Origin: Mesorhizobium sp. NZP2077
GTDB taxonomy: Bacteria > Pseudomonadota > Alphaproteobacteria > Rhizobiales > Rhizobiaceae
Direction of reading: 5' to 3'
DNA: 64,000 nucleotides
Assembly: GCF_013170805.1 (NCBI RefSeq)
Contig: NZ_CP051293.1
Span: forward strand, 496,001-560,000
Below the pieces are notes generated by a model. That model made no database searches. It was not told where the DNA came from and saw only the letters and a program-made list of their open reading frames with translations. A program made the position numbers and the translations under genes. Below, piece by piece: positions 17,245-57,519 of the stretch. Numbering within the stretch: the stretch's first letter is position 1; the number at the start of each line of letters is the position of its first letter.

Positions 17245-17596
17245 GCCACGCGCACTGTCCCGTCGCTGATTTTCCCAGACTTGCCTCGGCTTGGGCCGGC
17301 ACTGGCAAGGCACATACTTGCTCACCCGCCTCGACGTCGTTTCCCCGGCATCGGCCAAAATCGCGCCTCCGGTTTTGGAATCGCCCTTGACGCCTCGTGG
17401 CGAAATGGAATAAATATTTCACCGACTGTACATTTTGGTCCTTTCGTTCCGTAACACCTGTTTTAAGCAGAGGGTTGGCGTTCCAGCAAATGCAGGGAAT
17501 GCGGAACGAGACGGCATCAGGGAGAGATTCCCCGGGGAGATCGGGGATTCCGGATCGATCGGTGCAACCGGACACCAAAAGTGGAGGAGAAATACA
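17245..17596 (+). promoter_or_regulatory. 352-bp regulatory interval before the inositol-type transporter
   Basis: No convincing gene is seen here. A TTGACG element (17387-17392) could be a -35. Just downstream lies GGAA-TAAATA-TTTC (17407-17420), a one-mismatch form of the GGAA-N6-TTCC motif reported for the inositol repressor IolR of Sinorhizobium (from memory). A GGAGGAG-like sequence precedes the ATG at 17597. Confidence 0.5.
17407..17420. promoter_or_regulatory. IolR-like box upstream of the sugar-binding protein gene
   Basis: GGAA-N6-TTTC lies 15 bases downstream of TTGACG, over the presumed -10 region. It has the same single mismatch (TTTC for TTCC) as the second box before iolC at 27418-27431, and a similar place within a promoter. 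A repressor bound here would block transcription of the transporter genes. Confidence 0.5.
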
Positions 17597-18538
17597 ATGA
17601 AGAAACTGCTTTTGGGCGTCGCTTTCGCGGCGCTGATGAGTTCATCGGCCATGGCCGCCAAGATCGGCGTGTCGATGGCCAAGTTCGACGACAACTTCCT
17701 CACCGTGCTGCGCAACGGCATGATCGCGCAGGCCAAGGGCATAAGCGGCGTTGAGCTGCAGGTCGAAGACGCGCAGAACGACGTTGCCAAGCAACTCGAC
17801 CAGATCAAGAATTTCGCCGCTTCGGGCGTCGACGCGATCATCGTCAATCCGGTCGACACTTCGGCCACGCAGGCGATGTCGGACGCTGCCGCTGCCGCCA
17901 AGATCCCGCTGGTCTACGTCAATCGCCAACCGGTCAATGTCGACACGCTGCCGGCCAACCAGGCCTTCGTCGCCTCGAACGAAGCCGATTCCGGCACGCT
18001 CGAGACCAAGGAAGTCTGCCGCCTGTTCAAGGAAGCCGGCAAGAAGGAAGCCAATGTCTATGTGATCATGGGCGAGCTTTCCAATCAGGCAGCCGTGCAG
18101 CGCACCAAGGACATCGAAGAGGTGATCGCCACGCCGGATTGCAGCTTCATCAAGATCATCGACAAGCAGACGTCGAACTGGAACCGCGACGAAGCGCAGA
18201 ACCTGATGACCAACTGGCTGTCGACGGGCAAGAAGTTCGATGGCGTTATCGCCAACAATGACGAAAGCGCCATCGGCGCCATCCAGGCGATGAAGGCCGC
18301 CAACATCGACATGAAGACTGTTGTCGTCGGCGGTGTCGACGCCACCCAGGACGCGCTGGTGGCAATGCAAGCGGGCGATCTTGACGCGACCGTGTTCCAG
18401 GACGCGGCCGGCCAAGGCGCGGGCGCTCTGGATGCAGCGCTCAAGCTGGCCAAGGGCGAGAAGGTCGACCACAAGGTCTACATTCCCTTCCAACTGGTCA
18501 CACCGGCGAACATCGCCAAGTTCCTGAAGAAGAACTGA
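17597..18538 (+). CDS. sugar/inositol ABC transporter substrate-binding protein
   Basis: A 313-residue periplasmic binding protein of the RbsB class (Peripla_BP_4). It has a Sec signal (MKKLLLGVAFAALMSSSAMA) and begins the mature domain at AKIGVSMAKFDDNF. Sugar-site motifs seen are DAIIVNPVDT, NRQPVN and NNDESAIGA. The next genes encode its permease and ATPase, then inositol dehydrogenase. This makes myo-inositol (like Caulobacter IbpA) the likely ligand, by context rather than proof. The ATG at 17597 begins the signal peptide. The longer frame upstream has no coding features. Confidence 0.85.
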   Translation: MKKLLLGVAFAALMSSSAMAAKIGVSMAKFDDNFLTVLRNGMIAQAKGISGVELQVEDAQNDVAKQLDQIKNFAASGVDAIIVNPVDTSATQAMSDAAAAAKIPLVYVNRQPVNVDTLPANQAFVASNEADSGTLETKEVCRLFKEAGKKEANVYVIMGELSNQAAVQRTKDIEEVIATPDCSFIKIIDKQTSNWNRDEAQNLMTNWLSTGKKFDGVIANNDESAIGAIQAMKAANIDMKTVVVGGVDATQDALVAMQAGDLDATVFQDAAGQGAGALDAALKLAKGEKVDHKVYIPFQLVTPANIAKFLKKN

Positions 18539-18653
18539 GTAGCGAACGGTTCGATACAGAGCGGCGCTCTCGACAGAAAGTCAGCGCCGCTCCTGTTTCC
18601 CTCGACGCCGGTAAGGCGGCGAGGGTGAGTGCAGCTGACGGAGGACAGAAAAC

Positions 18654-19730
18654 TTGTCACAGACATCCCATGGCGTCGGCGGGGTCAGCTATGACGCAAA
18701 GAAGCGGACATGGCCGGCCGAGTTCAACGTTTTCCTGGCGCTCGTCATCCTCGTCGTCATCTTCGAAGTCATCGGCCGCCTCTTTCTCGGCGACTCCTTC
18801 CTGTTCAACACCCGCAGCGACGTCTCCGGCATCTTCAACGAGGCGCGCCTGCAGATCATCATCCTGCAAGTGTCGATCGTCGGCATCATCGCTATCGGCG
18901 TCACGCAGGTGATCATTTGCGGCGGCATCGACCTATCCTCCGGCTCCATCGTCGGCGCCACCGCGATGATCGCCATGAGTTTCGCCCAGGTGGCGACCGT
19001 CAACGGCAATCCCAACCCCAAGGCGATGTTCCTGGCGCAAGGCTGGACCGACCTGCCGGTCATCGTGCCGGTGCTGGTGGCGATCGGCTGCGGCCTGTTC
19101 GCCGGCCTGGTCAACGGCGCCTTGATTGCCTACACGCGCATTCCGCCGTTCATCGCCACGCTCGGCATGATGGTGACCGCGCGCGGCATTGCCAAATGGT
19201 GGTCGAAGGGCCAGCCTATCTCGTTTCCCACCGACGGTTTCGCTGCGATCGGCAAAGGCCTGATGCCCGTCATCATCTTTCTGTCGCTGGCGATCCTGTT
19301 CCAGCTGATCATGACCTACACCAGGTACGGCAAGCATTGTTACGCGATCGGCTCCAACGAGGATGCCGCGCGCATGTCCGGCATCAAGATCGCCAATCAC
19401 AAGATCCTCGTCTACGTCATCGCCGGCATACTCGCCGCGCTTGCCGCGGTGGTGCTCTCTTCCAAGAATCTCACCGCGCAATCCGGCATGGGCGTGATGT
19501 ATGAACTCGACGCCATCGCCATGGCGGTCATCGGCGGCGTCTCGCTGTCGGGCGGCCGCGGCTCGATCGTCGGCACGGTGATCGGCTCGCTGATCTTCGG
19601 CGTCATCATCTCCGGCTTCACCTTCCTGCGCCTCGACGCCTACTACCAGGAGATGGTCAAGGGCGTGATCATTGTCGGCGCCGTCGTTCTCGACCAGTGG
19701 CGCCAACGCCTGCGGGCATTGAGGGCTTGA
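18654..19730 (+). CDS. sugar/inositol ABC transporter permease
   Basis: A 358-residue RbsC-type permease with about eight to ten hydrophobic segments. The family signature region is GALIAYTRIPPFIATLGMMVTARG, whose cytoplasmic loop contacts the ATPase, and AVIGGVSLSGGRGSIVGT is conserved. Translation most likely starts at TTG (18654): GGAGGA stands 8 bases upstream and no better in-frame ATG exists nearby. It is second in the transporter operon, 115 bases after the binding-protein gene. Confidence 0.88.
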   Translation: MSQTSHGVGGVSYDAKKRTWPAEFNVFLALVILVVIFEVIGRLFLGDSFLFNTRSDVSGIFNEARLQIIILQVSIVGIIAIGVTQVIICGGIDLSSGSIVGATAMIAMSFAQVATVNGNPNPKAMFLAQGWTDLPVIVPVLVAIGCGLFAGLVNGALIAYTRIPPFIATLGMMVTARGIAKWWSKGQPISFPTDGFAAIGKGLMPVIIFLSLAILFQLIMTYTRYGKHCYAIGSNEDAARMSGIKIANHKILVYVIAGILAALAAVVLSSKNLTAQSGMGVMYELDAIAMAVIGGVSLSGGRGSIVGTVIGSLIFGVIISGFTFLRLDAYYQEMVKGVIIVGAVVLDQWRQRLRALRA

Positions 19731-19732
19731 CC

Positions 19733-20500
19733 ATGTCAGACATTGTCCTGAAGACCGAAAACCTGACCAAGCGCTATGGCGGCGTGCATGCGCTGGAAGG
19801 CGCCAACTTCGAGCTGCGCAAGGGCGAGCATGTCGCCATCATGGGCGACAACGGTGCCGGCAAATCGACCTTCGTGCGCCAGATCACCGCTGTCGAACAA
19901 CGCACGAGCGGCCAGATCTGGTTTGACGGCAAGGAAGTGAATTTTGCCGGGCCTATCGAGGCCCGCACGGCGGGCATCGAGACCGTGTTCCAGAACCTGG
20001 CGCTGGCCGACGACCTCGACGTGCCGTCGAACCTGTTCCTCGGCCGCGAAAAGGTGCTGTTCAATCTCGGCCCATTCTCGATCCTCGACCGCAAATACAT
20101 GCGCAAGGCGACCGAAGCGGCGCTGATCCGCACGGCGGTGAAGATCCCCAACCTGTCCAACACCATCCGTCACATGTCGGGCGGCCAGCGGCAGTGCGTG
20201 GCGATCGCCAGGACGGCAACCTTCGCCTCCAAGCTGATCATCATGGACGAGCCGACGGCGGCGCTCGGCGTGCAGGAGACGGCGCAGGTCGAAAACATCA
20301 TCCGCACACTGAAAGACAATGGCGAGCCGCTGATCCTGATCAGCCACAATATGCGCCAGGTGTTCGACCTTTGCGATCGCATCGTCGTCTTCCGGCGCGG
20401 CCGCATCGTCGCCAATCTGCGCAAGGAGAACACCGACGGCCAGGATATCGTCTCCTACATCACCGGCGCCAAGACCGGAGAGGCGGAACTCGCGGCTTGA
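19733..20500 (+). CDS. sugar/inositol ABC transporter ATP-binding protein, single domain
   Basis: A 255-residue ATPase with Walker A GDNGAGKST, signature MSGGQRQ and Walker B IIMDEPTAALG. It contains a single nucleotide-binding domain. RbsA/MglA-type sugar ATPases, including the one at 38339-39880 in this window, usually have two fused domains of about 500 residues. A homodimer would be needed here. The ATG at 19733 lies 2 bases after the permease stop, so translation is coupled. Confidence 0.88.
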   Translation: MSDIVLKTENLTKRYGGVHALEGANFELRKGEHVAIMGDNGAGKSTFVRQITAVEQRTSGQIWFDGKEVNFAGPIEARTAGIETVFQNLALADDLDVPSNLFLGREKVLFNLGPFSILDRKYMRKATEAALIRTAVKIPNLSNTIRHMSGGQRQCVAIARTATFASKLIIMDEPTAALGVQETAQVENIIRTLKDNGEPLILISHNMRQVFDLCDRIVVFRRGRIVANLRKENTDGQDIVSYITGAKTGEAELAA

Positions 20501-20560
20501 GGCCGGCCGGCTGGTCACCCTGCTCCGGGACGATCTGCCGCGCCAAGAAAATACCCCAGC

Positions 20561-20583
20561 CACCTTTCCCGGAGGGGAAGGTG
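20561..20583. repeat. hairpin between transporter ATPase gene and iolG
   Basis: A 10-bp stem, CACCTTTCCC (20561-20570) pairing with GGGGAAGGTG (20574-20583) through one G-U pair, has a 3-nt loop. It sits in the 124-bp gap within the cluster. It resembles the palindromic intergenic repeats frequent in rhizobial genomes and may affect the balance between upstream and downstream mRNA. Confidence 0.45.
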
Positions 20584-20624
20584 CGGACACAACTCTCTCG
20601 AACCCATCCCTAGAGGAAATATCC

Positions 20625-21620
20625 ATGACTGTTCGCTTCGCCCTCCTCGGTGCCGGCCGCATCGGCAAGGTCCATGCCCGCGCCGTCGGTTCAAACCCGC
20701 AGGCCAAACTGGTTGCCGTTGCCGACGCCTTCGAGAAGGCGGCAAAGGAACTGGCATCGGCCTATGGCGCCGCGGTGCGCACCATCGACGCCATCGAGAA
20801 ATCCGCGGATATCGACGCCGTCGTCATCTGCACACCGACCGACACCCATGCCGATCTGATCGAGCGCTTCGCCAAGGCCGGCAAGGCGATCTTCTGCGAG
20901 AAGCCGATCGACCTGAGCGTAAAGCGTGTGGAAAAATGCCTGGCCGTGGTCGAGAAGGCCAAGGCGACGCTGATGGTCGGTTTCAACAGGCGCTTCGACC
21001 CGCATTTCGCCGCCGTGCGCAAGGCGATCGACGACGGCGCGATCGGCACCGTCGAGATGGTCACCATCACTTCGCGCGATCCCGGCCCGCCGCCGCTGGA
21101 CTATATCGCCCGCTCGGGCGGCATTTTCCGCGACATGACCATCCACGATTTCGACATGGCGCGCTTCCTGCTCGGCGAGGAGCCGGTGGCGGTCAGCGCG
21201 CATGCCTCGGTGCTGGTCGACAAGAAGATCGGCGAGGCCGGCGATTTCGACTCGGTCAGCGTCATCCTCGAAACCGCTTCCGGCAAGCAGGCCGTCATCT
21301 CCAACTCGCGCCGCGCCACCTACGGCTACGACCAGCGCATCGAGGTGCATGGCTCGAAGGGCATGATAGCTGCCGAAAACCAGCGGCCGGTATCGATCGA
21401 ACTGGCCAACGAGAAGGGCTATACGCGCCCGCCGCTGCACGACTTCTTCATGACCCGCTATCTCGACGCCTATGCCCTTGAAATCGCTGCCTTCATCACC
21501 GCAGCAACCTCCGGCAAGAAGGCGGCACCGAGCGGCGCGGATGGGCTCGTGGCGCTGAAGCTGGCGGATGCGGCGCTGAAGTCGGCGACCACGGGCAAGA
21601 CCGTCCGTCTCGACAAGTAA
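20625..21620 (+). CDS. iolG: inositol 2-dehydrogenase
   Basis: NAD-dependent oxidation of myo-inositol to 2-keto-myo-inositol, the first catabolic step (called idhA in Sinorhizobium). The 331-residue Gfo/Idh/MocA protein has the Rossmann motif GAGRIGKVHA near residue 8, the catalytic Lys in CEKPIDL, and the active-site Asp/His in GGIFRDMTIHDFDMARF. It follows the transporter genes and precedes an SDR gene. Other enzymes of the pathway lie 7-12 kb downstream on the same strand. Confidence 0.92.
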   Translation: MTVRFALLGAGRIGKVHARAVGSNPQAKLVAVADAFEKAAKELASAYGAAVRTIDAIEKSADIDAVVICTPTDTHADLIERFAKAGKAIFCEKPIDLSVKRVEKCLAVVEKAKATLMVGFNRRFDPHFAAVRKAIDDGAIGTVEMVTITSRDPGPPPLDYIARSGGIFRDMTIHDFDMARFLLGEEPVAVSAHASVLVDKKIGEAGDFDSVSVILETASGKQAVISNSRRATYGYDQRIEVHGSKGMIAAENQRPVSIELANEKGYTRPPLHDFFMTRYLDAYALEIAAFITAATSGKKAAPSGADGLVALKLADAALKSATTGKTVRLDK

Positions 21621-21650
21621 GAACCGGACCCAAGCCACAGGAGCAGAACG

Positions 21651-22445
21651 ATGAGCGCATCAGCCGATCGCAATTCACAGACACGCGCCATCGTTACCGG
21701 CGGCGCGCAAGGTATCGGCTTTGCAGTCGCCGAGGCGCTGGCCGACGAGGGCTGCCGCGCACTGGCGCTCCTCGGCCGCTCGCAGGAGAAGGGCGACAAG
21801 GCTGTCGCTCACTTCAAGAAAGCCGGCGTCGACGCCATCTTCATCAGCGCCGACGTTTCAAAGGTGGCCGACTGCAAGCGCGCGGTAGCGACAGCACTCT
21901 CGCATTTCGGCACCCTCAACGCGCTGGTCAATGCCGCCGCCACGTCGGCGCGCGGGTCGCTGGTCGAAACGTCGGAAGAGCTTTTCGACCAGATCTTCGA
22001 CACCAATGTGCGCGGACCCTTCTTCCTGATGCAGGGGCTGGTCGCCCATCTGCTGGAGCGCAAGGCGCCGGGCTCGATCGTCAACGTGCTGTCGATGTCG
22101 GCGCATGCCGGCCAGTCCTTCCTGACGCCCTATTCAACCAGCAAGGGCGCGCTGATGACGCTGACCAAGAATGTCGCCAGCTCGTACCGGAAGAACCGCA
22201 TCCGCTGCAATGCCGTGCTGCCCGGCTGGATGGACACCGAAGGTGAGGCGATCGTGCAGAAGAAATGGCACGATGCGCCGGATGACTGGCTGGAAAAGGC
22301 CGAGGCCGCGCAACCGATGGGCCAGTTGGTGAAGCCGGCACAACTCGCCCGGCTGATCAGCTACATGATCAGCCCGCAGGCCGGCGTCATGACCGGGTCG
22401 CTGGTCGACTACGACCAGAACATTGCCGGGGTGGTCGGCGAGTAG
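21651..22445 (+). CDS. short-chain dehydrogenase/reductase
   Basis: A 264-residue classical SDR. The cofactor motif is TGGAQGIG, the structural NAA motif reads NAAATSARG, the catalytic Ser is in NVLSMSAHAG and Tyr/Lys are in YSTSK. The C terminus VMTGSLVDYDQ fits the family. It lies 30 bases after iolG and is likely co-transcribed. It may oxidise or reduce an inositol-related polyol such as an epimer, but the substrate cannot be read from sequence. Confidence 0.85.
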   Translation: MSASADRNSQTRAIVTGGAQGIGFAVAEALADEGCRALALLGRSQEKGDKAVAHFKKAGVDAIFISADVSKVADCKRAVATALSHFGTLNALVNAAATSARGSLVETSEELFDQIFDTNVRGPFFLMQGLVAHLLERKAPGSIVNVLSMSAHAGQSFLTPYSTSKGALMTLTKNVASSYRKNRIRCNAVLPGWMDTEGEAIVQKKWHDAPDDWLEKAEAAQPMGQLVKPAQLARLISYMISPQAGVMTGSLVDYDQNIAGVVGE

Positions 22446-22450
22446 GGGGC

Positions 22451-22479
22451 GTGACAAACGCCTCCGCATCAACTATATG
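22451..22479 (+). promoter_or_regulatory. candidate promoter of the DAHP synthase leader transcript
   Basis: GTGACA (22451-22456) and TATATG (22474-22479) are separated by 17 bases, a plausible sigma-70-type pair. The expected start, about 7 bases after the -10, is the A of the ATG at 22486. The leader mRNA would then begin with its own start codon, as described for the Sinorhizobium trp leader. Confidence 0.5.
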
Positions 22480-22485
22480 AGCCGC

Positions 22486-22557
22486 ATGATCAACCTGTCC
22501 GCCACGTATTGGTACTTTAGGAGCTCGCTGGCGGCGGGAGGATTGCGCTCGATCTGA
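22486..22557 (+). CDS. leader peptide with Tyr-Trp-Tyr-Phe run (attenuator control)
   Basis: A 23-codon ORF from ATG 22486 to TGA 22557. Codons 8-11 (22507-22518) are TAT TGG TAC TTT, four aromatic residues in a row (YWYF). An in-frame ATG at 22477 would lengthen it by three residues but overlaps the presumed -10. There is no Shine-Dalgarno sequence, which fits leaderless initiation at the transcript's first AUG. Scarcity of charged aromatic tRNAs should stall a ribosome at YWYF. The run lies inside the loop of a possible 1:2 hairpin (22499-22504 with 22529-22534), and a terminator follows. DAHP synthase is the entry to Tyr, Trp and Phe synthesis, so all three amino acids fit as signals. Confidence 0.8.
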   Translation: MINLSATYWYFRSSLAAGGLRSI

Positions 22558-22610
22558 AGATTGCAGCAACAACATCCGAACAGCCGCCAGACCTGGCGGC
22601 TTTTTTGTTT
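22528..22610 (+). terminator. attenuator: terminator hairpin with competing antiterminator
   Basis: Terminator: GCCGCCAG (22583-22590) pairs with CTGGCGGC (22593-22600); a 6-bp stem with a 6-nt loop is the practical form. TTTTTTG and TTT follow at 22601-22610. An exact copy of CTGGCGGC lies at 22528-22535 and can instead pair with 22583-22590, preventing the terminator. That upstream copy overlaps TGGCGG (22529-22534), which can be sequestered by CCGCCA (22499-22504). The 1:2, 2:3 and 3:4 scheme of a translation-coupled attenuator is therefore complete. It ends 38 bases before the DAHP synthase start. Confidence 0.85.
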
Positions 22611-22647
22611 CAGCCGGCAGGTCTCCTAAACCCAGGAGAAGAAAGCC

Positions 22648-23739
22648 GTGTTGACCACCACAGACGACCTTCGGGTCAAGGAAATCCGAGAACTGAGTAC
22701 ACCGGATCAGGTGATGCGGGAGATCCCGCGCACGCTGACGGCAACGCGCACCGTGAGCGCGTCACGCAACGCCATCCACGCCATCCTGAACGGAACCGAC
22801 GACCGGCTGCTCGTCGTCGTCGGGCCCTGTTCGATCCACGATCCGGTCGCGGCCGTCGACTATGCCAGCCGTCTGGCGGCGCTGCGCGAGACCCTGTCCG
22901 ACCGGCTCGAGATCGTGATGCGCGTTTATTTCGAGAAGCCGCGCACCACGGTAGGCTGGAAGGGCCTGATCAACGATCCCGATCTTGACGGCAGCTTCAA
23001 CATCGACAAGGGGCTGCGGATGGCGCGCAACGTGCTGTCGGCGGTCAACAATCTCGGCCTGCCGGCGGCAACTGAGTTCCTCGACATGACGACGCCGCAA
23101 TACATTGCCGACCTTGTCGCCTGGGGCGCCATTGGCGCGCGCACCACCGAGAGCCAGATCCATCGCGAACTGGCCTCGGGCCTATCCTGCCCGGTCGGCT
23201 TCAAGAACGGTACAGACGGCAATCTCAGGATCGCCGCCGAGGCGGTGAAATCCGCCGCCCAGCCGCATCATTTCATGGCGGTGACCAAGGGCGGACGCAG
23301 CGGCATCGCAACGACGACCGGCAATGAGGACTGCCATGTCATCCTGCGCGGCGGTGTTCAGCCCAATTATGACGCGGCAAGCGTCGAAGCCGCATCTGTG
23401 GAACTCGCCCATATCGGTGTCGCGCCTCGGCTGATGATCGATGTCAGCCACGCCAACTCAGCCAAGAAGCCCGAGAACCAGCCCATGGTCGCGGCCGACG
23501 TGGCGGGCCAGGTGGCGGCGGGCGACGAGCGCATCATCGGCCTCATGATCGAGAGCAATCTCGTTGCCGGCCGGCAGGACGTGGTGCCCGGCAAGCCGCT
23601 CGTCTACGGCCAGAGCATCACCGATGGCTGCATCGACTGGGCGACCACCGAGACCGTGCTGCACGGCCTTGCCGGGGCCGTCGAATGGCGCCGCTCAGCG
23701 CGCCGCGCCATGCTGGAAAGCCGGCAGGGCGCCGCCTGA
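22648..23739 (+). CDS. aroG: DAHP synthase, class I (AroF/G/H type)
   Basis: Condenses phosphoenolpyruvate and erythrose 4-phosphate to DAHP, the first step of the shikimate pathway. The 363-residue protein has GPCSIHD with the metal Cys, EKPRTTVGWKG, GARTTESQIHRE, KGGRSGIATTTGN and IDVSHANSAKKP, all blocks of the E. coli AroF/G/H class. Many rhizobia rely on the unrelated class II enzyme, so this may be a second isoenzyme. The start is GTG at 22648 with AGGAGAA placed well upstream. Expression is probably set by the attenuator directly before it. The position inside the inositol region appears accidental. Confidence 0.92.
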   Translation: MLTTTDDLRVKEIRELSTPDQVMREIPRTLTATRTVSASRNAIHAILNGTDDRLLVVVGPCSIHDPVAAVDYASRLAALRETLSDRLEIVMRVYFEKPRTTVGWKGLINDPDLDGSFNIDKGLRMARNVLSAVNNLGLPAATEFLDMTTPQYIADLVAWGAIGARTTESQIHRELASGLSCPVGFKNGTDGNLRIAAEAVKSAAQPHHFMAVTKGGRSGIATTTGNEDCHVILRGGVQPNYDAASVEAASVELAHIGVAPRLMIDVSHANSAKKPENQPMVAADVAGQVAAGDERIIGLMIESNLVAGRQDVVPGKPLVYGQSITDGCIDWATTETVLHGLAGAVEWRRSARRAMLESRQGAA

Positions 23740-43366: not shown

Positions 43367-43443
<77 letters not shown>

Positions 43444-53843: not shown

Positions 53844-54004
53844 GGATTTTCCTTCCATCGATTTGGCAAACTGTGGTTTTGGGGTGACCTGTCAACCTCA
53901 ACCGCCAAATCGGATCAGAAGGTGTCGCCCAGCGGGTCATTGCGTGACCATTGGATGGCGGCAATGTGCAGCTCAATCACACCGCATTCCGGGAGCAATC
54001 GCTG

Positions 54005-55717
<1,713 letters not shown>

Positions 55718-56276: not shown

Positions 56277-56869
56277 ATGGCCAGCGAAATAGCCTCCCCC
56301 ACGACATCTTCCCACATATCCGCATCGTCATGGGCATGGTGATCGGGCTTGGCGTCACCCGCCTGCTATCGGGGCTCGCCCGCATCGTCCAGCATCCCGG
56401 CCAGTACCGGCTCTATTCCGTGCATCTGGCCTGGGTCGGCTCCATGCTGTTGCTGCTGGTGCATTTCTGGTGGTGGGAGTTCGGCCTCTACGCCATCGAG
56501 ACCTGGACCTTCGGCAAGTATCTATTCCTCATCTTCTACGCGATCACGCTGTTCCTGCTCTGTGCGCTGCTGTTTCCGGATTCGATGCTGGACTACACCA
56601 GCTACGAGGATTTCTTCTATTCGCGCCGCGCCTGGTTTTTCGGCCTCCTGGCGACGACCTATCTGCTCGACGTGGTCGACACGCTGCTGAAGGGGCCCGA
56701 GCACTTTGCCCGCTATGGCAACGAATATCTGTTTCGCACCCCGGTCTTCGTCGCGCTGTGCATTGCCGCCATCCTGGTGCGCAACCGCCGGTTTCACATC
56801 GCCTTCGTCGCCGGCACGCTGATCTATCAGATATCGTTCATCCTGCGGCTCTTCGACACGATCGTATGA
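56277..56869 (+). pseudogene. membrane protein with apparent 5' frameshift
   Basis: From about 56305 the plus-frame reads HDIFPHIRIVMGMVIGLGVTRLLSGLARIV, then several hydrophobic segments, a clear membrane protein of about 180 or more residues. No start codon lies in this frame before the ATG at 56330, although coding-like sequence extends upstream of it. An ATG at 56277, 3 bases after the DUF29 stop, runs MASEIASP in another frame. One extra base in the run of five C (56296-56300) would join the two. Either a 1-base deletion inactivated or shortened the gene, or the real start is 56330 (179 residues). Function is unknown. Confidence 0.6.
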
Positions 56870-56913
56870 CTACAGCGGATGGTCTAGAGTCGAGGGAAAG
56901 GCAGGATTTTACC

Positions 56914-57519
56914 ATGTACAAGGCCATCGGATCGCGGGGGTCCCGGGTCAGCCGCGTTCTCTGGATGCTCGAGGAACTCGGGCAGCCCTATGAATTCGTC
57001 GAGGTCAAACTGCGCTCGCCGGAAGCCTATGCGCTCAATCCGTCGGGTAAGGTGCCGATCCTTATCGACGGCGAGCTGACGGTGACGGATTCGGCGGCGA
57101 TCTGCGTCTATCTGGCCGACAAGCACGCGGACAAAGGCATGGGCGCCAATCCAGGTGTCGCCGGCCGTGCCGAGATGGATTCCTGGATGCATTTTGCCCA
57201 GAGCGAGTTCGAGGCGCCGCTGTGGAACAAATTGCGCCACCGCTTCCTGCTGCCCAGGGAAGTGCGGGTCGATGTCGGCCCCGCGGCGGCCTATGATTTT
57301 GCTTCGGAAGCCAAGGCGCTGGACCGCCGGCTTGGCGACAAAAATTTTGCGCTCGGCGAGCGATTTTCCGCCGTCGACGTGTTGCTCGGCGACATGGGCA
57401 GTTGGGCCCGCGCCGGAAAATTTCCGATCGAGTCCGACCGCGTCAACGCCTATCTCGACCGCGTGCTGGCGCGGCCCGCCCGTGCGCGGGCACAAGCCAA
57501 CGGAGGCTCCATGAAATGA
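56914..57519 (+). CDS. glutathione S-transferase-family protein
   Basis: A 201-residue GST with [21 protein letters not shown] at the N terminus, the cis-Pro block [11 protein letters not shown], the GSH block [19 protein letters not shown] and a helical C domain with [12 protein letters not shown]. The start at 56914 has AAGGCAGG about 8 bases upstream. It overlaps the ureE start by 4 bases (ATGA), so it is translationally coupled to a urease accessory gene. This coupling is unexpected and of unknown meaning. Confidence 0.85.

Follow-up and report, generated by a model that had tools for sequence, protein, structure and literature searches.

The type I 3-deoxy-D-arabino-heptulosonate 7-phosphate (DAHP) synthase gene of Mesorhizobium sp. 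NZP2077 is, with high probability, controlled by a ribosome-mediated transcription attenuator that lies immediately upstream, as judged from the sequence, its conservation, the pairing of its segments by comparison and the placing of its control codons. The gene and its leader are contained in the window, that is, the whole 64,000-nucleotide (nt) stretch that was analysed (NZ_CP051293.1, positions 496,001-560,000), and all coordinates below are window positions. The parts of the locus, read from the letters, are as follows.

22451-22456, + strand: predicted leader promoter, -35 element GTGACA; by eye, GTGACA(A) stands at about the same distance in many alphaproteobacterial loci
between 22456 and 22474, + strand: promoter spacer, 17 nt
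22474-22479, + strand: -10 element TATATG, its 3' end 6 nt before the leader ATG, assigned from the letters and the spacing comparison
22486-22557, + strand: leader open reading frame (ORF) of 23 codons plus TGA (22555-22557), MINLSATYWYFRSSLAAGGLRSI, with its ATG at 22486 and no Shine-Dalgarno sequence
22499-22504, + strand: segment 1, CCGCCA, a possible partner of segment 2 (weakly supported)
22507-22518, + strand: control codons Tyr-Trp-Tyr-Phe (TAT TGG TAC TTT), codons 8 to 11 of the leader
22528-22535, + strand: segment 2, CTGGCGGC, inside the leader, the antiterminator strand that pairs with segment 3
22582-22590, + strand: segment 3, AGCCGCCAG, the terminator 5' arm
22593-22601, + strand: segment 4, CTGGCGGCT, the terminator 3' arm
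22601-22606, + strand: T-run of the intrinsic terminator
22634-22638, + strand: AGGAG, Shine-Dalgarno sequence of the DAHP synthase gene
22648-23739, + strand: type I DAHP synthase gene (AroF/G/H type), GTG start, by PF00793 and TIGR00034

The initial annotation, made from this DNA alone, had named the 23-codon leader with its aromatic run, the GTGACA-N17-TATATG promoter ahead of the leader ATG, the terminator hairpin with its T-run and a second copy of the terminator 3' arm, and each of these is read where it had been placed; segment 2 is an exact repeat of eight bases from that arm. The downstream gene, which it had called a class I DAHP synthase, is of type I (TIGR00034, 522.6 bits against a cut-off of 173.2), and a search of the genome with the protein returned 22648-23739 as the one match. 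The type II DAHP synthase gene elsewhere in the genome has neither a run of four T nor an ORF with an aromatic run in the 150 nt before the match. A terminator scan of 22200-22900 gave a single + strand site, at 22582-22601 (8 pairs, loop of 4), and two further sites on the - strand, with shuffles of the region averaging 0.4 over both strands. The Tyr-Trp-Tyr-Phe run is one of two runs of at least four aromatic codons across the six frames of the window. The other, Phe-Trp-Trp-Trp at 56465, was considered as a second (Trp) leader and rejected: it lies inside an ORF of 226 amino acids, hydrophobic by eye, and the terminator routine gave no site in 56301-56900 around it.

Ribosome-mediated attenuation is a textbook mechanism, and the parts just listed would be suited to it. 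The transcript would begin with the A of the leader AUG or with a base beside it, and its leaderless 5' end would take up a ribosome that trails the RNA polymerase. A shortage of tRNA charged with Tyr, Trp or Phe would stall this ribosome on the aromatic run; segment 2 (22528-22535), lying just past its front edge, would then pair with segment 3 (22582-22590), so that no terminator forms and the gene is transcribed. When Tyr, Trp and Phe are all plentiful, the ribosome would reach the stop codon and cover segment 2, segments 3 and 4 would form the terminator, and a leader RNA would be released that, running from 22486 to 22606, would measure 121 nt.

The proposal was examined by comparison across 197 DAHP synthase loci, 80 of them from named records and 117 from genome samples, with upstream sequence taken for one match per genome. 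Group labels follow the named records for the 80 loci, and kinship or family columns together with leader resemblance for the 117; 79 loci are alphaproteobacterial and 118 are other, and all counts ignore kinship, so that relatives are not independent. The strict detector looks for a short ORF with four aromatic codons among seven and an intrinsic terminator behind it; its antiterminator score measures how far the leader is complementary to the terminator 5' arm. It was positive at 129 of the 197 loci, nine of these positives having an antiterminator score below 15. With a score of at least 15 demanded, 120 of the 196 loci with enough upstream sequence were positive, against 4 of 1,960 dinucleotide shuffles and 3 of 8,593 other stretches; regardless of that score, the controls gave 4 of 1,960 and 4 of 8,593. 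The complete pattern is thus far beyond chance. A looser detector was positive at 76 of the 79 alphaproteobacterial and 61 of the 118 other loci (controls: 4 of 980 shuffles and 14 of 4,210 other stretches).

Among the alphaproteobacterial loci, 72 of the 79 were positive by the strict detector and 77 by either one, and the aromatic run, the pairing of segments 2 and 3 and the terminator pairing are conserved there; the comparison of orthologous leaders, which the initial annotation had named as a check, in this way sustains its proposal of an attenuator with aromatic control codons over the 79 alphaproteobacterial and 118 other loci. Three alphaproteobacterial loci escaped the looser detector. 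One of them (L138) is found by the strict detector, and another (L114) has the layout by eye, with a leader that holds Phe-Tyr only. The third (L111) starts at a contig edge, close to which its gene begins, and another contig of the same genome (L226) ends in leader and terminator; the assembly of that genome (G451) breaks at the leader, its contigs C5 and C83, which carry L111 and L226, sharing about 60 bases.

Conservation of the pairing was measured in an alignment of 72 alphaproteobacterial leaders, from which the seven of the 79 loci that the strict detector could not place were omitted. The terminator helix is paired in 97.4% of cells (slid controls 25.3-73.1%), with changes on both sides in three of nine pairs. 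The antiterminator, segments 2 and 3, is paired in 86.4% of cells (slid controls 16.0-56.4%), with changes on both sides in four of eight pairs, including G-C to A-U in two rows, which agrees with the role that had been assigned to the second copy of the terminator arm. When the letters were re-dealt, none of 500 shuffles reached the observed paired percentage of either helix, and the covariation score was equalled in 0 of 500 shuffles for the terminator and 7 of 500 for the antiterminator. A compensated change can be read directly in the sequences of five Rhizobium-type leaders (L122, L149, L041, L136 and L150; L122 and L149 are included in the pairing counts): segment 2 is altered to CAGCGG and segment 3 matches it with CCGCTAG, while segment 4 is still CTGGCGG, so that the antiterminator change is compensated and the terminator is left with a U-G pair. 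In at least three Devosia-type loci (L011, L012 and L014) segment 2 is read in another frame (..RWQP.. as against ..SLAAGG..), which argues that in these loci it is the RNA that is constrained, not the peptide.

Two further pairings were looked at beside this core. A hairpin of segment 2 with a downstream GCGC, proposed by RNAalifold, was rejected, with 0 of 64 alphaproteobacterial, 0 of 34 beta/other and 0 of 15 Xanthomonadales leaders at p≤0.05. A fifth segment complementary to the terminator 3' arm, GCCGCCGG or GCCGCCA, follows the T-run in many alphaproteobacterial and Xanthomonadales leaders; it is enriched at p≤0.05 in 25 of 72 and 6 of 15 of them, and not in beta/other leaders (1 of 42). 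Window positions 22607-22625 hold only the imperfect GCCGGCAG, which is not significant (p 0.44). Read-through RNA could form with this segment a hairpin that carries the T-run in its loop, and the segment is left out of the model.

The position of the control codons fits a stalled ribosome. In 60 alphaproteobacterial, 15 Xanthomonadales and 39 beta/other loci, aromatic codons fall mainly about 36 to 12 nt before the segment 2 motif GGCGG; nearer to it, in bins -9 to -1, they number 1 of 180, 0 of 45 and 1 of 117, respectively. At this boundary, about 12 nt before segment 2, a ribosome stalled on the run would have its front edge. Folding was computed for 21 leaders, on nascent RNA that ended short of the terminator 3' arm and was held unpaired as far as 13 nt past the first A-site base. 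For the window leader the mean computed pairing of segments 2 and 3 is 1.00 with TAT, TGG or TAC in the A-site, 0.86 with TTT and 0.39 with AGG, and it is zero from TCG onwards; the 20 further leaders come near zero within one to three codons past the last aromatic codon of the run.

Synonymous codons were also compared between leaders and genes. Phe codons (TTT:TTC) stand at 133:33 in alphaproteobacterial leaders against 20:354 in the genes, at 34:4 against 5:62 in Xanthomonadales and at 139:42 against 45:189 in the beta/other group, where the gene counts refer to the portion of gene sequence in hand. Tyr codons (TAT:TAC) are shifted in the same direction, to a smaller extent (112:74 against 164:155, 17:30 against 8:55 and 47:47 against 68:164, in the same order). 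Since 378 of the 425 alphaproteobacterial leader codons between the start codon and the run end in G or C, the excess of TTT is not a matter of generally low GC in the leader; p-values for the bias are not to be taken literally, because relatives are not independent. Slower decoding of UUU and freedom from structure are possible reasons for the preference.

Several results weigh against the attenuator as set out above, or against parts of it. By the looser detector, 57 of the 118 DAHP synthase loci outside Alphaproteobacteria lack the element. The covariation is modest by some measures when held against re-dealt letters, the number of doubly changed pairs being equalled in 109 of 500 shuffles for the terminator and in 10 of 500 for the antiterminator. 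A hairpin of segments 1 and 2, enclosing the aromatic codons, had been part of the initial annotation; it should favour termination when the leader is not translated, and its letters (22499-22504 with 22529-22534) are present, but it is weakly supported by the comparison, as pairing at the fixed columns amounts to 59.7% with slid controls at 34.7-57.2% and the columns are no better conserved than such controls. Some pairing of this type may nevertheless exist, to judge by a position-free test (p≤0.05 in 22 of 64 alphaproteobacterial, 17 of 41 beta/other and 4 of 15 Xanthomonadales leaders). Folded without a ribosome, 7 of the 21 leaders show pairing of segments 2 and 3 below 0.5, but in the window leader that pairing is complete, so that its untranslated leader might read through; more generally, an untranslated leader without such a protector would tend to read through. 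Lastly, the Corynebacterium aroR leader has a Tyr codon and yet is described, in the excerpts of its literature cited below, as unresponsive to Tyr; the presence of a codon is therefore no proof of sensing.

The start of the leader transcript bears on the alternative that survives best. In 57 of 72 alphaproteobacterial leaders the best match to a -10 element has its 3' end 6-7 nt ahead of the ATG (360 of 7,200 shuffled upstream sequences), and in 11 of 15 Xanthomonadales leaders the distance is 7-8 nt (61 of 1,500 shuffles). A Shine-Dalgarno match, defined as a duplex energy of -6 or lower with the 16S 3' end, is found for 1 of 128 leaders, scored over the 20 nt ahead of the ATG, against 88 of 128 DAHP synthase genes; the genes were scored over the 23 nt upstream of the point where the protein match begins, and that point may be some codons downstream of the gene start. 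We thus predict leaderless translation in Alphaproteobacteria and Xanthomonadales and a start without Shine-Dalgarno sequence elsewhere, and for the window a transcript that starts at or beside the A of the ATG at 22486; the probable leaderless start named by the initial annotation agrees with the spacing and with the scarcity of Shine-Dalgarno sequences. The leader promoter is absent from the list that a promoter scan gave for the region, because the scan demands a T at position 6, which TATATG does not have. Alternatively, the attenuator could work as proposed on a transcript from further upstream, with a 5' extension on the leader. The DNA at 17435-22445 carries sugar ATP-binding cassette (ABC) transporter genes, an inositol 2-dehydrogenase-like (iolG) gene and a short-chain dehydrogenase/reductase (SDR) gene, the last ending five bases before the -35 element, and read-through from them could enter the leader, the scan of 22200-22900 having no + strand terminator before 22582. 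An in-frame ATG at 22477 and the beta/other group, where 35 of 41 loci have their best -10 match 15-39 nt ahead of the ATG, point the same way. Set against the -10 spacing in the two other groups and the near absence of Shine-Dalgarno matches, an extended leader appears unlikely.

Further alternatives concern what the element is for. The terminated RNA, the 23-amino-acid peptide or both could be the main product, acting in trans as do rnTrpL and peTrpL of Sinorhizobium meliloti, a precedent from the same class in the excerpted accounts (PMC10117765, PMC7298713), with control of DAHP synthase being secondary. The frame change of segment 2 in the Devosia-type loci, where the RNA is kept rather than the peptide, and the location of strong covariance-model copies beside the DAHP synthase gene (see below) both speak against it, and we regard a trans-acting product as distinctly improbable. 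A plain terminator that damps read-through behind a chance aromatic-rich ORF would suit the frequency of intrinsic terminators between genes and the plain look of ten weak covariance-model matches, yet leader, codon position, segment 2 and terminator are conserved jointly by comparison with controls, and this explanation is very hard to sustain. As to a ligand-binding riboswitch or a T-box, which such sites can hold in general, its probability is close to negligible, given that the locus has no match to an Rfam family at gathering score (sub-threshold matches are weak), that the window has no T-box match at that score, and that 40 related loci give no family at gathering score either, save for a glycine riboswitch about 0.9 kb past the gene in one of them (L052).

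How widely the attenuator recurs was followed through genome samples. Type I DAHP synthase is patchy in Alphaproteobacteria, with 39 of 297 genomes in the sample of the order and 18 of 387 in that of the class (three genomes in both), and the strict test was passed by all 39 genes of the former and 16 of the 18 of the latter, L111 and L114 being the failures. Matches were present in 220 of the 397 genomes sampled from the phylum, and the upstream sequence was read in 82 of these genomes, among the matches listed, picked for family spread. At named loci outside Alphaproteobacteria the element was found in Burkholderia and relatives, Oxalobacteraceae, Xanthomonas, Stenotrophomonas and Dyella; it was not found at the named loci examined in Erwinia, Pectobacterium, Serratia, Enterovibrio and Photobacterium, nor at those in Thauera, Azoarcus, Dechloromonas, Methylotenera and Chitinimonas. 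The element is therefore neither Betaproteobacteria-wide nor restricted to Alphaproteobacteria. A covariance model built from 33 alphaproteobacterial leaders gave one strong match (at least 75 bits) in each of 29 genomes, of which a first search supplied 24 and a second one 5 more. Of the 26 that were looked up, 25 adjoin a type I gene (24 by fetched loci, G005 by coordinates) and one is at a contig edge. The ten weak matches that were read (23-33 bits) are terminators after other sequence; one of the ten, in L230, overlaps an out-of-frame aromatic stretch at an ORF end. A search for distant DNA similarity with 22451-22660 against plasmid records gave nothing.

Taken further, the leaders of Alphaproteobacteria, Betaproteobacteria and Xanthomonadales may constitute one RNA class that stays coupled to the type I gene as it moves and that serves, where the shikimate pathway begins, as an OR gate for the three aromatic amino acids; its translation would start without a Shine-Dalgarno sequence, and its Phe codons would go against the bias of the gene (UUU over UUC). 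We lean slightly towards this view. In enterics that entry point is the domain of TyrR and TrpR, under which the DAHP synthase genes of E. coli and enterics are placed (PMC11802643, as excerpted). In a contig binned as Anaerolineae (Chloroflexota; L063), a short ORF beginning MSRYFSFFSWYGYF... stands about 200 nt before a type I DAHP synthase gene, together with a long GC-rich hairpin that lacks a T-run; this is perhaps an independent attenuator or a mis-binned contig.

Attenuation before a DAHP synthase gene is not a new idea, since the aroR-aroF attenuator of Corynebacterium glutamicum has been published (Neshat et al. 2014, via PMC11802643, PMC4046766 and PMC7356990). According to the excerpts of these sources, it likewise places a leader peptide with aromatic codons before the DAHP synthase gene and relies on ribosome stalling; it differs, by description, in its Phe-Tyr-Phe run with no Trp mentioned there, in responding to Phe and not to Tyr limitation, and in belonging to Actinobacteria (PMC11802643, PMC4046766, PMC7356990). 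The S. meliloti trp attenuator (rnTrpL) is also an alphaproteobacterial ribosome-mediated attenuator, and its trpL leader is a published leaderless case; as excerpted, it carries consecutive Trp codons and controls trpE(G), and its quoted leader peptides have, by eye, only aromatic residues in common with the window peptide (PMC10117765, PMC7298713). The uORFC-13-1 motif of Acholeplasma resembles the element as a predicted upstream ORF with terminator before the DAHP synthase gene aroF, and differs, in the portion of the source available, by Phe codons, a ribosome binding site within the motif and 24 examples confined to Acholeplasma and environmental sequences (PMC8632094). The pheA, pheST and trp attenuators of E. 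coli follow the same logic of leader codons, antiterminator and terminator, at other genes and for single amino acids (PMC11802643, in part). Attenuators before aroF or aroF-tyrA have been predicted or hypothesised in Shewanella, Vibrio and E. coli (PMC2659441, PMC1173090, PMC8632094), that of E. coli aroF as a hypothesis (PMC8632094); the excerpted proposals give no leader peptide of the present layout, and the enteric and Vibrio-group loci examined here are without it. In the literature searched, no description of the present proteobacterial element was found, and the survey of Vitreschak et al. 2004 and the Merino database (cited in PMC1173090) could contain it.

No Pfam or NCBIfam family matches ten leader peptides at E up to 1, and no Rfam family covers the element at the scanned loci at gathering score; Phe_leader (RF01859) scores 20.0 bits at the locus, below its gathering score of 55, which leaves the element outside that family. 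The Rfam sRNA BjrC1505 was matched over exactly the leader at 13.4 bits (E 3.6) and rejected as chance, because that family has strong copies of its own elsewhere, in the Mesorhizobium genome (72.7 bits) and in 4 other genomes searched, and the three copies read precede unrelated genes. The Mesorhizobium copy (G000:C1:1257893-1258036, L203) lies upstream of a 177-amino-acid ORF that is, by eye, like the ORF following BjrC1505 in Bradyrhizobium. Other Rfam matches in the window are 5_ureB_sRNA at 54155-54446 (- strand), antisense to the ORF at 53951-55717, by eye a urease alpha subunit, MH_s36 at 56875-56964 (+ strand) and a tRNA at 43370-43443 (- strand).

The mechanism as such and attenuation of DAHP synthase are already known, and the part not found described is a family that recurs widely in proteobacteria; the element is well supported by the comparison, and its interest rests on its breadth, the run for three amino acids and the start without a Shine-Dalgarno sequence. 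If the attenuator operates as proposed, it would subject the first shikimate enzyme to a simple regulatory logic in many non-enteric bacteria, among them nitrogen-fixing symbionts of the genera Mesorhizobium and Bradyrhizobium. The natural series of more than 100 leaders would make it testable how three amino acid signals are combined by one ribosome, why Shine-Dalgarno initiation is avoided and why UUU is preferred among the Phe codons.

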